DNA of 64,000 bases from an uncultured Pelagibacteraceae bacterium (GTDB lineage: Bacteria > Pseudomonadota > Alphaproteobacteria > Pelagibacterales > Pelagibacteraceae), in assembly GCA_902624045.1 (NCBI GenBank), contig CACNVX010000003.1:18788-82787 (forward strand), read 5' to 3'. Both the position numbers and the translations under genes were made by a program. Below the pieces are notes generated by a model that saw only the letters and a list, made by a program, of their open reading frames with translations, did no database searches and was not told the origin of the DNA. Every line of letters starts with the position of its first letter. Positions within the stretch are counted from its first letter, which is position 1. Shown here piece after piece: positions 52,250 through 61,162 of this stretch.

Positions 52250-52873
52250 TTATGAATATCTCTTTTCTAGTTCTTTTACAGAACTCTCTGTAAAAACTAC
52301 TTTTTTGAATTTAATAATATCGTAAGCGCTGAAATGATTCACATCTGTAACTTTAACATTTGGAATATTTCTTACTGATTTTTCAATCTTCTCTTTCGAA
52401 CTTTTATCTAAAATTATTAGAGAGTTTTTAATTTCAAGTTTATTAATTATTGAGTTCATCTCTTTTGTTTTTTTAATTTCAGATCTAAAGTCATTTAGAA
52501 TTAATAAATTTTTATTATTATTTTTTTCTGTAATTAATGAAGCTACGCTTTGTTTTTTCTCGGTTTTGTTTAATTTTCTTTTTTTATATGCCAATTCACC
52601 TTTTGGTCCATGAGCAATACCACCGCCTACAAATATAGGAGCTTTTCTGCTGGCATGTCTTGCTCCGCCAGTTCCTTTTTGAGCATATATTTTTGAAGTT
52701 GGTCCTTTTACTTCATTTTGTTGTTTAGTTTTGGCATGTCTTCCTTTGTAATTAGCATTTGTTTTATAAAGAACAGCACTAACTAATTTATGGTTAATTT
52801 TTGCAGAAAAGATCTTATCTAAAACTTCAATACTATCTTTTTTTCCATCTATGCTAATTTTATCTAATTTCAT
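52250..52873 (-). CDS. rplD: 50S ribosomal protein L4
   Basis: KIYAQKGTGGARHASRKAPIFVGGGIAHGP. Confidence 0.97.
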   Translation of the reverse strand: MKLDKISIDGKKDSIEVLDKIFSAKINHKLVSAVLYKTNANYKGRHAKTKQQNEVKGPTSKIYAQKGTGGARHASRKAPIFVGGGIAHGPKGELAYKKRKLNKTEKKQSVASLITEKNNNKNLLILNDFRSEIKKTKEMNSIINKLEIKNSLIILDKSSKEKIEKSVRNIPNVKVTDVNHFSAYDIIKFKKVVFTESSVKELEKRYS

Positions 52874-53585: not shown

Positions 53586-53894
53586 TTAAATTTTTATCTC
53601 CACATCTACACCTGAAGCTAAATCAAGTTTCATCAATGCTTCTACAGTTTGTGGTGTTGGTTCAATAATATCTATTAATCTTTTGTGTGTTCTTGACTCA
53701 AACTGCTCTCTACTTTTCTTATCTATATGAGGTGATCTTAAAACTGTGTATCTTTCAATTCTTGTAGGTAATGGAATTGGTCCCTTAATTGTAGCTCCAG
53801 TTCTTTTTACTGTATTTACAATCTCTTCTGTGGAAGCATCTAAAACTTTATTATCATATGCTCTTAATTTAATTCTTATGTTCTGTTTTTCCAT
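53586..53894 (-). CDS. rpsJ: 30S ribosomal protein S10
   Basis: [47 protein letters not shown]. Confidence 0.97.
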
Positions 53895-53896
53895 GA

Positions 53897-55975
53897 TTAT
53901 CCTGCAATCTTCTTAGTTACTTCGTCTTGAACATTTTGTGGAACTTTTGAATAATGATCAAAAAACATTGAATATTGTGCTCTACCTTGAGACATTGATC
54001 TTAAGTTATTTATATAACCAAACATATTTGCTAAAGGAACCATTGCAGTAATTACAGTTGCATTACCTCTTTGTTCTTGAGTGCTGATTTGACCCCTTCT
54101 ACTGTTTAAGTCTCCTATAACGTCACCCATGTAATCTTCAGGTGTTACAACCTCAACTCTCATTACAGGTTCTAATAATTTTAATCCGCCTTTTGTACAA
54201 GCCTCTTTAAAACAAGCCCTACTTGCTAATTCGAATGCTAATACACTTGAGTCAACATCGTGATGTAAACCATCTAAGATAGTTACCTTATAATCTATCA
54301 TTGGAAAACCAGCTAAAATTCCAGTATCCGAAACTGTTTCTATACCTTTTTCAACACCTGGAATAAATTCTTTTGGAATTGCACCACCTTTGATTTTGCT
54401 CTCAACATCTCGACCTTTGCCAGGTTCTTGAGGCTCTACTAAAAGTTTAACTTTTGCAAATTGACCAGCACCACCACTTTGTTTTTTATGAGTGTATTCA
54501 ACCTCTGAAGCAGCTTCTATAGTTTCTCTATAAGCAACTTGTGGAGCTCCAACATTTGCTTCTACTTTAAATTCTCTTTTCATTCTATCAACAATAATAT
54601 CTAGGTGTAACTCACCCATTCCTTTAATAATGGTTTGTCCTGACTCTTCATCTGATGTAACTCTAAATGAAGGATCTTCCTTGGCTAACCTGCCTAAAGC
54701 TTCACCCATTTTTTCTTGGTCCGCTTTGGTTTTTGGTTCTACTGCTATTTCAATTACTGGATCAGGAAATTCCATTGGTTCAAGTAGAACTGAATTTTCT
54801 TCGTCACATAAAGTGTGTCCTGTAATTGTATTTTTTAATCCAGCTAAAGCTACTATGTCACCTGCATTAGCTTCTTTAATATCTTCACGAGAATTTGCAT
54901 GCATTAGTAGCATTCGTCCAACTCTCTCTTCTTTCTCTTTAGAAGAATTGAACACGGCAGTACCAGTTTTAATTGTACCTGAATAAATTCTTATAAAAGT
55001 TAATGAGCCAACAAATGGATCGTTAGCCACCTTAAAAGCTAAAGCTGAAAAAGGAGCATTGTCCTCAAATTTCATTTCCATATCCTCTTCACTACCTAAT
55101 TTAGTTCCTTTGATAGAACCAATATCTACTGGGCTTGGTAAATAATTCACAACAGCATCAAGTAAAGGTTGAACGCCTTTATTTTTGAATGCTGAACCTG
55201 TTAAAACTGGAACAAAACTAAAATTTAGTGTTCCTTTTCTTATACATTTAACTAAATCATCCTCTTTAATTTCTTCTCCATTCAAATATGCTTCCATTAA
55301 TTTTTCATCTTGTTCTACGGCTGTTTCTACTAATTCTGTTCTATATTTTTCTGAAATTTCTTTTAAGTCCTCTGGAATTTCTTTGTATTCCCATTCAGCT
55401 CCTAATGCCTCATTTTTCCAAACTTGAGCTTTCATTTTAACAAGATCAACTACACCAGATAAAGAGGCTTCAGCACCTATAGGAACTTGTACTACCAAAG
55501 GTTTGGCACCTAGTCTGTCTTTAATCATATCTACACATCTAAAGAAATCAGCACCTGTTCTATCTAATTTATTAACAAAACAAATTCTTGGCACTTTGTA
55601 CTTATCGGCTTGTCTCCAAACTGTTTCGGATTGAGGCTCTACACCTGCAACACCGTCAAAAACAGCAACTGCACCATCTAAAACTTTTAAAGACCTTTCT
55701 ACTTCGATTGTAAAGTCAACGTGACCAGGAGTGTCAATAATATTAATTCTATGATCATTCCAAAAACATGTAGTAGCAGCAGATGTAATTGTAATACCTC
55801 TTTCTTGTTCTTGTTCCATCCAATCCATTGTTGCTGCACCGTCGTGTACTTCACCAATTTTATGACTTTTACCTGTGTAGTATAGAACTCTTTCAGTGGT
55901 GGTAGTCTTACCAGCATCAATGTGAGCCATGATGCCAATATTTCTATATTTATCTAATGAATGAGTTCTAGCCAT
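53897..55975 (-). CDS. fusA: Elongation factor G
   Basis: [38 protein letters not shown]. Confidence 0.98.
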
Positions 55976-55981
55976 ACTTTA

Positions 55982-56452
55982 TTACCACCTAAAATGAGCA
56001 AAAGCCTTGTTAGACTCTGCCATTTTATGTACATCCTCTCTTTTTTTAACTGCTGCACCTTTTTTTTCATAAGCATCGTAAAGCTCATTAAAAATTTTGT
56101 CTGCCATGTGTTTATCTTTTCTTTTTCTTGCTGATTCAACTAACCATCTAATTGCTAAAGCCTGAGCTCTTTTACTTTTTACTTCTACAGGCACTTGGTA
56201 TGTAGCTCCGCCAACACGTCTAGATCTGACTTCCACTGTTGGTTTTATATTATTTATTGCTTCATTAAAAATATTTATTGGCTCATCTTTTGTTTTTGTT
56301 TTAATTTTTTCTATTGCATCATAGACTATTTTTGAAGCAATACCTCTTTTACCATCATACATAATGTTGTTTATTAATTTAGGAATGATAGTTGAATTAA
56401 ATTTTGGATCTGGAACTACATTTTTTTTCGGTTGAGTTTTTTTTCTAGACAT
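55982..56452 (-). CDS. rpsG: 30S ribosomal protein S7
   Basis: PDPKFNSTIIPKLINNIMYDGKRGIA; RVGGATYQVPVEV. Confidence 0.97.
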   Translation of the reverse strand: MSRKKTQPKKNVVPDPKFNSTIIPKLINNIMYDGKRGIASKIVYDAIEKIKTKTKDEPINIFNEAINNIKPTVEVRSRRVGGATYQVPVEVKSKRAQALAIRWLVESARKRKDKHMADKIFNELYDAYEKKGAAVKKREDVHKMAESNKAFAHFRW

Positions 56453-56823
56453 TATTTACCTTTTTTTGTTCCGTATAGAGATCTTCTTTGTTTTCTGTTA
56501 GCAACACCTTGAGTATCTAAATTACCTCTTAAAATATGGTAACGCACACCTGGTAAATCTTTTACTCTTCCTCCTCTAATTAATACTACTGAGTGTTCTT
56601 GAAGATTATGACCTTCTCCAGGAATATAAGCTGTTACCTCGAAACCATTAGACAATCTTACTCTTGCTACTTTTCTTAATGCAGAGTTTGGTTTCTTAGG
56701 AGTTGTTGTATAAACTTTAACGCATACACCTCTTTTTAAAGGTTGTTTTTGTAAAGCAGGAACTTTGTTCCTTGCAGCTGGTTTAACTCTTTTTTTTCTT
56801 AACAACTGATTAATAGTTGGCAT
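56452..56823 (-). CDS. rpsL: 30S ribosomal protein S12
   Basis: [52 protein letters not shown]. Confidence 0.98.
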
Positions 56824-56857
56824 AAATTTTTCTTTAAAATTAATTTATTTTTAGATG

Positions 56858-56879
56858 AAAATAACTGACAGGTTATTTT
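56858..56879 (-). other. Perfect 8-bp stem hairpin in the rpsL leader
   Basis: AAAATAAC-CTGTCA-GTTATTTT on the minus strand. Confidence 0.45.
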
Positions 56880-56881
56880 GT

Positions 56882-56932
56882 GGCAGCGTTTAGCACTGTT
56901 AGAAGCACTACATTCCAACCAAAAACACCGCC
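56882..56932 (-). ncRNA. Candidate structured leader/processing element in the rpoC-rpsL spacer
   Basis: Outer 10-bp stem GGCGGUGUUU/AAACGCUGCC (two G-U) enclosing inner 7-bp stem GUUGGAA/UUCUAAC (one G-U) with loop UGUAGUGC. Confidence 0.5.
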
Positions 56933-56960
56933 AAATTACTTATTAATATCCCTTTGTCAA
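56933..56960 (-). promoter_or_regulatory. Possible sigma70-like promoter in the rpoC-rpsL spacer
   Basis: Perfect -35 TTGACA (56960..56955), 16-bp spacer, weak -10 TAATTT (56938..56933). Confidence 0.35.
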
Positions 56961-56989
56961 ACTAAAACTGCAATTTTTAGGCGATTTTT

Positions 56990-59900
56990 TTACTGATTTG
57001 CCTGTTTTTCTTCAGGTTCTGAACCTTCTATTTTATCCTGCTCTGCTAAGAAATTATTATCATCTTCTAGAGCTTTATTGTTCCATCTATTTTTAATATT
57101 ACCAGTACCTGCTGGAACTAATCTTCCAACAATTACATTCTCCTTTAGACCATTTAATGGATCAACTTTTCCTTTAATTGCAGCATCTGTTAGTACCCTT
57201 GTAGTTTCTTGAAACGAAGCTGCTGAAATAAAAGATTCAGTTTGAAGTGAAGCTTTAGTGATACCCATTAAAACCCTCTCACCAACAGCTGGTGTTTTGC
57301 CATCTGCAACTAATTTTTCATTGGTATTATCAAACTTAATTCTATCTACTACCTCGCCTGGCAAATAACTTGAATCTCCAGATATTTTTACTTCAACCTT
57401 TTTAAGCATTTGTCTTAATATAGTTTCGATATGCTTATCGTTAATTATTACACCTTGTAATCTATAAACTTCTTGAACTTGGTTAACAAAATATTCTGTT
57501 AATTCTTTTATTCCTAAAATTCTTAAAATATCGTGTGGCAATGGTTGGCCATCTAAAAGATATTCTCCTTTTTGAATTTTTTCACCAGGGTTAAAATTGA
57601 TATGTTTACCTTTTGGAATCAGATAGTTTGATGGTTCCGATCCATCTTCAGGAACAATAGATACTCTTTGTTTACCTCTTACCTCTTTACCAAATACCAC
57701 ACTGCCATCATTTTCCGCAATGATTGCACTATCCTTCGCTTTTCTAGCTTCAAATAACTCAGCAACTCTTGGAAGACCTCCGGTTATATCTTTTGTTTTT
57801 GTAGTTTCCTTAGGTAATCTAGCAATAACATCTCCTGCATAAACCTTTTGACCATCTTTAATTGATAAAATCGAGTCTGGTACTAAATAATATCTAGCTT
57901 CATTATCATCAGCTTTTTTAATCACATTTCCTTTTTCGTCTCTTAGAGTAATTCTAGGTTTTAAATCAGTGCTTTTTGATTGACCTCTCCAATCGATTAC
58001 TGATTTAGAAGAAATTCCTGTTGCATCATCAGTAGTTTCTTGAATTGATACACCATCTATTAAATCTACATAACTCGCCGTACCACTTTTTTCTGCAATA
58101 ACCGGTGTTGTATATGGATCCCATTCGCAGATTTTATTGTTAGCCTTTACTTTATCTCCGTTATTGAAAAATAATCTTGAGCCATAAGCAACTTTATAAA
58201 CTGCTATCTGAACACCCTTATCATCCTCAATAGAGAGCTGAGTATTTCTTCCCATTACAATTAAATTCTTTTTTGAATCCTCTAAAATATTTGAGTTTAT
58301 AATTTTTAGTGTTCCATCACTTTTAGTTATAATTTGAGAGTCTTGTTTAACTGAAGCTGTACCACCAACGTGAAAAGTTCTCATCGTTAATTGTGTCCCA
58401 GGTTCTCCAATTGATTGAGCTGAAATCATTCCTATTGCTTCCCCGACATGAACCATTTTACCTCTAGATAAATCTCTTCCATAACATGTTGCACAAACAC
58501 CTTCTTTAGAGCTACATGTCATCACTGAATAAACTTTTATTGATTTTACACCTGCTGCATCAATTTTATCACAACCAGCTTCATCAATCATTTCAGATTT
58601 TTTAATAATTACCTCACCTGATAAAGGATTTTTAACCTCAGCAGCTGTAACTCTCCCTAATGCTCTTTCAGATAAACTAACTACAACATTACCACCCTCT
58701 AAAATTTCAGAAAGCTCTATAAATCCAGGATCGTCACATTTGATTTTTGTTATTGTTAAGTCTTGAGCTACATCACATAATCTTCGAGTTAAATAACCAG
58801 AACTAGCTGTTTTAAGTGCTGTATCTGCTAAACCTTTTCTAGCTCCATGTGTTGAATTAAAGTATTCTAGAGCAGTTAAACCCTCTTTAAAATTTGAAAT
58901 AATTGGACTTTCAATAATTTCTCCTGAAGGCTTAGCAATTAAACCTCTCATACCAGCTAATTGTTTCATTTGTGCTGCCGAACCTCTTGCGCCACTATCC
59001 GCCATCATGAATACTGAATTTATCTTCAAACCTTCGTCAGTTTTTTCTGTTGCAGAAATTCCTTTCATCATTTCTCCCGCGACTTTATCTGTACACTTTG
59101 ACCAAGCATCAACAACTTTATTATATTTTTCACCTCGCGTGATTAAACCTTCTGCATACTGGGTTTCATAATCTGCAATTAATTTTTTTGTATCTTCAAT
59201 TAATTGAGTTTTGTTTTTTGGAATTATCAAATCGTCTTTTCCAAATGAAATACCTGCTTTAAAGGCATGTTTAAATCCTAAATCTTTGAGTCTATCACAG
59301 AATATAACTGTAGTTTTTTGCCCACAAAACCTGAAAACAACATCAATTATTTCTGAAACAACTTTTTTTGGTAACAACCTGTCTACTAAAGAAAATTTAA
59401 TATTACTATTTTTAGGTAATAGATTTGCAAGTAAAAATCTTCCTGCTGTTGAAGTATATTTCTCAATTTTTTTATTACCTTTATCATCAACAGTTTCATA
59501 TCTTGAAATAATAGTGCTATGAACATTAATTTGCCCAGAAGATAATGCAAACTCAATCTGATCTGAATTAGTAAAATACCCTGCTGGTTTGTTGGATATA
59601 GGTTCTTGCGAAAGATAATAAATACCTAAAATCATATCCTGACTAGGAACAATAATTGGTTTACCGTTAGAAGGTGAGAGAATATTATTTGTTGAAAGCA
59701 TTAATATTCTTGCCTCCAACTGAGCTTCTAAACTCAGGGGAACATGAACTGCCATTTGATCACCGTCAAAATCAGCATTGAATGCTGCACAAGTAAGTGG
59801 GTGTAATTCAATCGCATCACCTTCTATTAATTTTGGCTCAAAAGCTTGTACCCCAAGTCTATGGAGAGTTGGTGCTCTGTTTAGTAGAACAGGGTGTTCT

Positions 59901-61162
59901 CTTACAATTAGTTCTAATGCATCCCAGACTGCATTAGTTTCTTTCTCTACTAACTTTTTTGCTTGCTTGATAGTTGAGGCTAAACCTAATTTATTTAATC
60001 TTGCGTATAAAAATGGTTTAAATAGTTCTAATGCCATTTTTTTTGGTAATCCACATTCATGCAATTTTAAATCTGGACCAACAACAATTACTGATCGTCC
60101 TGAATAATCAACTCTTTTACCCAATAAATTTTGTCTAAATCTTCCTTGTTTACCTTTTAACATTTCAGCAAGAGATTTAAGAGGTCTCTTACCTGTACCT
60201 GTAATTACTCTACCTCTTCTACCATTGTCAAAAAGAGCATCAACAGATTCTTGAAGCATCCTTTTTTCATTTCTTACAATGATATCTGGAGCTTTAAGAT
60301 CCATTAATCTTTTTAATCTGTTATTTCTATTGATTACCCTTCTGTATAGATCGTTAAGATCTGAAGTGGCAAATCTACCACCATCTAATGGTACTAAAGG
60401 TCTTAATTCAGGTGGTATAACTGGAACCACAGTCATAATCATCCACTCAGGTTTTTGACCAGTTTCAATAAATGACTCGATTAATTTTAATCTTTTAATT
60501 GCTCTTTCTTCGTTTACCTTAGATTTTGTCTCCTTAATAAAACTTACAAGATTTTTTCGTTCATTCTCTAAATCTAAATTTTTTAACATTTCAAGAACAG
60601 CCTCTGCACCTATACCTGCTGTAAAACTTTCTTCACCGAATTCATCTTGATATTTTGCTAACTCTTCTTCATTCAAAAGTTGATTTTTTTGCAAACCAGT
60701 TAAACCTGGCTCTATAACTATAAAGTTTTCAAAATACAGAACTCTCTCTATTTCTTTTAATTTCATATCTACAGCTAAAGCAATTCTACTTGGTAAAGAT
60801 TTTAAAAACCAAATATGAGCTACTGGGGTAGCAAGATTGATATGACCCATTCTTTCTCTTCTTACATTTGATTTAGTAACTTCAACTCCACACTTCTCAC
60901 ATATAATTCCTCTGAATTTCATTCGTTTATACTTCCCGCATAAACACTCATAATCTTTTATTGGTCCAAAAATCCTTGCACAAAATAAACCATCTTTTTC
61001 TGGTCTGAAAGTTCTGTAATTAATGGTTTCTGGTTTTTTGATTTCACCAAATGTCCATGATTTAATTTTTTCGGGACTCGCTAGTGAAATCTTTATACTA
61101 TTAAAATTTTGAGCTTCTGATATTTCATTACTCTTAAATAGATCTGTTATTTCTTTTTTCAT
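56990..61162 (-). CDS. rpoC: RNA polymerase beta' subunit
   Basis: [38 protein letters not shown]. Confidence 0.99.

Follow-up and report, generated by a model that had tools for sequence, protein, structure and literature searches.

Regulatory leaders of ribosomal-protein operons

A ribosomal-protein leader is usually controlled by a product of its own transcript. Such a protein is the ligand in all characterised cases (PMC2704228). In Escherichia coli, S7 is a known regulator of the str operon and acts on a site between rpsL and rpsG, while the S10 leader is controlled by L4 through transcriptional attenuation (PMC10931766). For Alphaproteobacteria, the open-access literature searched reports no S7 site like that of E. 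coli and no L4 leader.

The closest described element is the rpsL RNA motif of SAR11, which Meyer et al. (2009) found in 'Candidatus Pelagibacter ubique' and marine metagenomes and nowhere else, and for which no binding partner was named (PMC2704228). It is catalogued in Rfam as RF01823 ('rspL') and drawn as a three-way junction. Naville and Gautheret (2010) reported attenuators in rpsL leaders, including those of Rickettsia; no common feature was seen among them, and the Pelagibacter element failed their criteria (PMC2965389). In Rhodobacter sphaeroides, a 75-nt RNA from the rpsL 5' UTR was seen in a PNPase mutant (PMC7866481).

The rpsL leader of a Pelagibacteraceae genome

The window, the whole stretch of DNA that was analysed, comprises 64,000 nt of an uncultured Pelagibacteraceae bacterium. 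As the first-pass annotation had observed, a 166-nt gap stands out in an otherwise tightly packed ribosomal-protein cluster. The gap separates rpsL from an open reading frame taken as rpoC, whose end matches that of the same frame adjoining rpsL in other genomes. Downstream genes overlap or sit a few bases apart. The features of the locus are as follows.

56990-61162: open reading frame taken as rpoC, on the far side of the spacer from rpsL
56824-56989: the spacer
56955..56960, minus strand: TTGACA, -35 box of the operon promoter, present in all 165 relatives
56933..56938, minus strand: -10 box TAATTT (TANTTT in relatives), in 165 of 165
56928..56932, minus strand: GGCGG adjoining the -10 box, varying freely relative to its supposed pairing partner
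56844..56934, minus strand: full match to RF01823 (cmscan, 86.3 bits; gathering threshold 37)
56452..56823, minus strand: rpsL (S12; Pfam PF00164), first gene downstream of the leader
52250..52873, minus strand: rplD (L4; Pfam PF00573), in the same gene run, proposed here as a candidate regulator

An Rfam search, which the first-pass annotation had suggested, identifies the spacer as a member of RF01823, lying 3' of rpoC and 5' of rpsL as the family does. The locus itself is thus already known. A match to mir-982 in the window is attributable to chance (15.5 against 70 bits). Among 397 sampled genomes of the same order, RF01823 was found in 228, all of one genus. In a sample of 20 genomes of that genus without a match, 13 assemblies have no S12 match either, two contain only a truncated copy, and in the remaining five rpsL is complete but its leader has diverged.

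The two promoter boxes are separated by exactly 16 nt in all 165 spacers of the genus, and TTGAC-type boxes occur at the equivalent place in other Alphaproteobacteria. A generic sigma-70 scan of the window does not report TTGACA-N16-TAATTT because the -10 box is weak. Given the invariance of this promoter, the RNA probably starts near 56926 (about 56925-56928), which is below the 5' arm of the outermost helix drawn in the first-pass annotation. The GGCGG sequence would then be a GC-rich promoter discriminator rather than a helix arm; other families have CGCG-like discriminators in the equivalent position.

Conserved structure of the leader

The first-pass annotation had drawn an outer helix between GGCGGUGUUU (56932-56923) and AAACGCUGCC (56891-56882), an inner helix GUUGGAA/UUCUAAC, and a perfect 8-bp hairpin, AAAAUAAC-CUGUCA-GUUAUUUU, at 56879-56858. 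All of these letters are present on the minus strand, and the drawn fold is the minimum free energy (MFE) fold of the whole spacer. Its folding energy does not stand out (z = -0.75, equalled by 47 of 200 shuffles) and is thus uninformative as evidence for structure.

Conservation was examined in an alignment of 165 distinct spacers from the genus, with a null in which the changes of each column were placed randomly on the spacer tree. Neither drawn helix is conserved: across the spacers the outer is 78% and the inner 59% paired, both with zero compensatory events. The strongest covariation falls on a helix that had not been drawn, P2 (UAGUGC/GUGCUA), which is 99% paired with 18 compensatory branch events against 1.5 in the null. 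The repeated AGUGC that had been placed in an apical and an internal loop is real, but its copies form the two arms of P2. The 3' hairpin is better supported than the drawn helices (87% paired; four compensatory branch events against 0.5), although it is specific to SAR11. By the criterion given in the first-pass annotation, loss of pairing in homologues, the structure as drawn is refuted, since its helices are not the conserved ones, but the element is not: it covaries in P2 and, at class level, in a core hairpin. Together with the RF01823 match, this covariation supports the view that the str/S10 superoperon has a structured leader with a regulatory role. The parts of the core hairpin and the hairpin that follows it are given below.

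56916..56921, minus strand: 5' arm of core helix P1, UGGUUG, pairing with 56881-56886; class-wide covariation
56911..56915, minus strand: 5' side of the internal loop, GAAUG (GNNG elsewhere), conserved, a candidate ligand contact
56905..56910, minus strand: 5' arm of helix P2, UAGUGC, covarying
56891..56896, minus strand: 3' arm of helix P2, GUGCUA, covarying
56887..56890, minus strand: 3' side of the internal loop, AACG (RACG elsewhere), conserved
56881..56886, minus strand: 3' arm of core helix P1, CUGCCA; class-wide covariation
56858..56879, minus strand: the SAR11-specific 3' hairpin

The SAR11 consensus of the core is UGGUUG-GAAUG-UAGU...ACUA-AACG-CUGCCA. Pairing of UGGUUG with CUGCCA excludes P1 and P3 of the RF01823 junction and keeps P2, so that the two folds are mutually exclusive except for this helix. 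In the junction, the 3' arm of the 3' hairpin pairs instead with GGAAUG (56916-56911). Within the genus the junction helices P1b, P3 and P1a are paired in 96%, 91% and 75% of cases, with zero compensatory events, one strand hardly varying. The folds are also nearly isoenergetic. For RNA of the window starting at 56926, the junction-like fold has -15.0 kcal/mol and the core plus 3' hairpin -12.6 kcal/mol; if the start is moved one base downstream, the MFE structure (-13.9 kcal/mol) resembles the core fold. Neither fold visibly encloses a ribosome binding site or a terminator.

An RNase III processing site had also been put forward. A long near-perfect duplex of the type cut by this enzyme is absent, and such a site is unlikely because the conserved part consists of only 9-11 interrupted base pairs. 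A possible further pairing, UUGGC (56934-56930) with GYCAG (56869-56865), shows four compensatory events in a single pair, where the null reaches at most 2, but begins upstream of the point at which the RNA is inferred to start.

A core hairpin across Alphaproteobacteria

A similar hairpin lies just below a similar promoter in another family of the order (loci L168-L172) and in other Alphaproteobacteria, for example GGGCUG-GCGG-UAGG...CCUA-GACG-CAGCCC. The loci from other Alphaproteobacteria came from a scan of genome contigs with the S12 protein, in which only one SAR11 record was present; the SAR11 spacers came from a separate genome search. Rfam 15 gave no match on 20 non-SAR11 core loci, nor on ten alphaproteobacterial ones found later.

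A covariance model of the core (R1; 32 positions, 16 sequences) was built after removal of the SAR11-specific parts. Every training hairpin came from an RF01823 locus or an rpsL leader and had been picked with a descriptor in which pairing and RACG are obligatory; for this reason, the position of the matches and the sequences found later weigh more than the first alignment. In 386 genomes of the class, R1 found one site each in 35 genomes, and of the 30 sites fetched, 29 immediately precede rpsL. The model was then rebuilt from 47 matches (R2) and likewise matched 35 of 386 class genomes with E values of 0.1 or less. With the limit raised to 2, it matched 44 of 314, most genomes being without a match; rpsL lies downstream of 11 of the 12 further R2 sites fetched (E 0.028 to 1.6). 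Among 299 genomes drawn from the whole phylum, R2 had no match outside Alphaproteobacteria. Confirmed sites come from about 25 sampled families.

At class level, seven of the nine base pairs show double changes, with 96.8% pairing and a covariation score of 0.456 against 0.159 in shuffled alignments; the signal collapses when the alignment is slid. The covariation was repeated on the later-found sequences (97.6% paired). In the window, the leader of the str/S10 ribosomal-protein operon contains P1, the GNNG/RACG loop and P2, and this core is the sole match in its genome, at 28.3-31.1 bits, a score to be read with the window sequence being among the training rows. With most sampled genomes lacking a match, the core appears to be scattered through the class, either patchily or often too diverged for a 35-position model.

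Some leaders outside this set deserve mention. L057 and L061, which have no match, look by eye like diverged copies of the core. Seven Rhizobiales leaders (L054, L055, L056, L060, L064, L065, L067) have an early GATGTGAG, later CCTCTGC, and then a GC-rich hairpin, and are possibly another leader form or a diverged copy of the core. A different conserved stretch, GTCAAAGTAACCCGG, followed at a distance by GGTGGAG and TCGTG, is common to the rpsL leaders of four loci (L103, L104, L128, L130), some 330 nt before the gene; these loci are from Croceicoccus, Erythrobacter, Altererythrobacter and a genome titled Actirhodobacter. A second, weak match in genome G470 (L342, G470:C1:311422-311473; 29.2 bits) lies inside an open reading frame resembling a response regulator with a phosphatase-like part; being away from any ribosomal gene, it is probably due to chance.

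Terminator-like hairpins in long leaders

Terminator-like hairpins, defined as those at or below -18 kcal/mol, were counted in 75 distinct leaders longer than 100 nt and in dinucleotide shuffles of these. They are present in 51 of the 75 long leaders, against a mean of 5.7 in the shuffles, and this enrichment makes attenuation likely in such leaders. The 15 short leaders, those of SAR11 and the like, have no terminator-like hairpin, and in the window no intrinsic terminator lies in the leader, nor between the core and the first gene. The attenuator proposed in the first-pass annotation thus finds support in the long leaders of related Alphaproteobacteria but not in SAR11, which would appear to have lost its leader terminators. 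The 75-nt RNA reported from R. sphaeroides would fit a short leader RNA, if that species carries the core.

Gene position and the candidate ligand

The genes that follow the core differ between lineages. In genus g61, the core follows rpsL-rpsG-fusA-tuf and precedes rpsJ at all 29 loci fetched in the order search (L291-L319). Elsewhere in that family, other genera carry it in front of rpsL, and G833 has both sites. In G470 (L281), the core lies between tuf and rpsJ; rpsL is 4.4 kb upstream, and its own leader gave no core match, showing by eye a promoter-like stretch and a terminator-like hairpin. In G869, the core precedes rpsG. The window has only a two-base gap between fusA and rpsJ (53894-53897), with no tuf between them, unlike g61.

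These positions bear on the proposal, made in the first-pass annotation, of an autogenous site for S12 or S7, the products of the first two genes downstream. Most core sites do stand directly before rpsL-rpsG, and S7 has its precedent in E. coli. Moreover, rpsL and rpsG overlap by one base in the window, which makes an E. coli-like intercistronic S7 site impossible there. However, while S7 and S12 are encoded in the target transcript at the window, this is true of neither in the rpsJ leaders of g61, nor of S12 in G869. Likeness to rRNA does not help either: GUUGGAAU presumably resembles, at first sight, alphaproteobacterial 16S rRNA near the S7 site, but the core model has no match above chance in E. 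coli 16S or 23S rRNA, where an 8-base match is expected by chance, and rRNA mimicry was set aside. Given the own-transcript rule, the sites before rpsJ and rpsG disfavour S12 and S7, and a site for either protein is unlikely. They point to a ligand encoded from rpsJ onwards, which we regard as reasonably likely. That this ligand is L4, the E. coli precedent, is possible but distinctly more doubtful; neither the comparison with the E. coli S10 leader nor that with E. coli rRNA speaks for it.

Two other explanations concern the structure and the mode of action. The RF01823 junction might alone be functional, with the hairpin of other Alphaproteobacteria as a separate element, given that several relatives, as well as window RNA starting at 56926-56927 (-15 to -16 kcal/mol), have the junction as their MFE structure, and that P1b is so consistently paired. 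Yet both elements occupy the same position relative to promoter and gene, with the same CUAAACG signature and the same P2, and junction helices P1 and P3 lack compensatory events. In addition, L161-L165, of the same genus and without an RF01823 match, keep the core, which is the MFE structure of L165, the only one folded. A solely functional junction is thus quite unlikely. The hairpin could instead be merely a 5'-end stabiliser or a processing signal, or the leader could yield a trans-acting small RNA. In favour of this group are its location at the 5' end of the RNA, the leader RNA that accumulates in the R. sphaeroides PNPase mutant and the Rfam typing of RF01823 as sRNA. A stabiliser, however, has no need of a conserved internal loop, and the element is tied to ribosomal-protein operons, with terminator-like hairpins after the core in long leaders; this group of explanations is very unlikely. 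The element of the window is, we consider with some confidence, a cis-acting 5' leader RNA of the SAR11 str-S10 superoperon and is predicted to be a ribosomal-protein leader.

A proposed model for the leader

Transcription from TTGACA-N16-TAATTT would start at about 56926, and the core hairpin would be transcribed first: P1 (56921-56916/56886-56881), the loop GAAUG/AACG, and P2 (56910-56905/56896-56891). This hairpin is the candidate binding site for a ribosomal protein of the same transcript. In the longer leaders of other Alphaproteobacteria, a terminator-like hairpin stands between the core and the first gene, and regulation there is most likely by transcriptional attenuation, the mechanism that L4 uses on the S10 leader of E. 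coli. In SAR11, the leader is short and without a terminator, and would fold either as core plus 3' hairpin or as the RF01823 three-way junction. Protein binding to the core might shift the balance between these folds and so alter the translation or stability of the operon mRNA. Such a two-fold switch is a tentative proposal, with the chances somewhat against it.

The comparison with known systems is mixed. Like the E. coli S10 leader, the core leads the S10 gene run, shares an attenuation design in long-leader relatives, and in g61 stands at the same gene, rpsJ. It differs in that the core model gave no sequence or structure match at the E. coli rpsJ leader even with filters off, in its usual place before rpsL, and in the absence of a terminator in SAR11. 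The E. coli S7 site acts on the same gene group, but it is intercistronic, whereas the core is a 5' leader. The rpsL attenuators of Naville and Gautheret resemble the long leaders in their terminators. RF01823 is the same locus as that of the window, known only from SAR11, whereas the core hairpin reaches other Alphaproteobacteria. The shared core, its spread, its sites in front of rpsJ and rpsG and the lack of terminators in SAR11 are new here; none of them came up in the open-access literature searched or among the new ribosomal leaders that Eckert and Weinberg tabulated (2020; PMC7247131).

It is tempting to speculate, at slightly less than even confidence, that the core marks a wider ribosomal-protein leader across Alphaproteobacteria, with an S10-operon protein as its ligand, which has moved between rpsL, rpsG and rpsJ. 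RF01823 would be its terminator-less form, streamlined SAR11 having turned an attenuator into a two-state leader.

Since 2009, RF01823 has stood without an assigned regulator or relatives outside SAR11, and it can now be placed in a wider family. This family offers cultivable relatives for ligand tests, and the rpsJ position in one genus narrows the choice of ligand. It also suggests how the largest run of ribosomal-protein genes may be regulated in Alphaproteobacteria.
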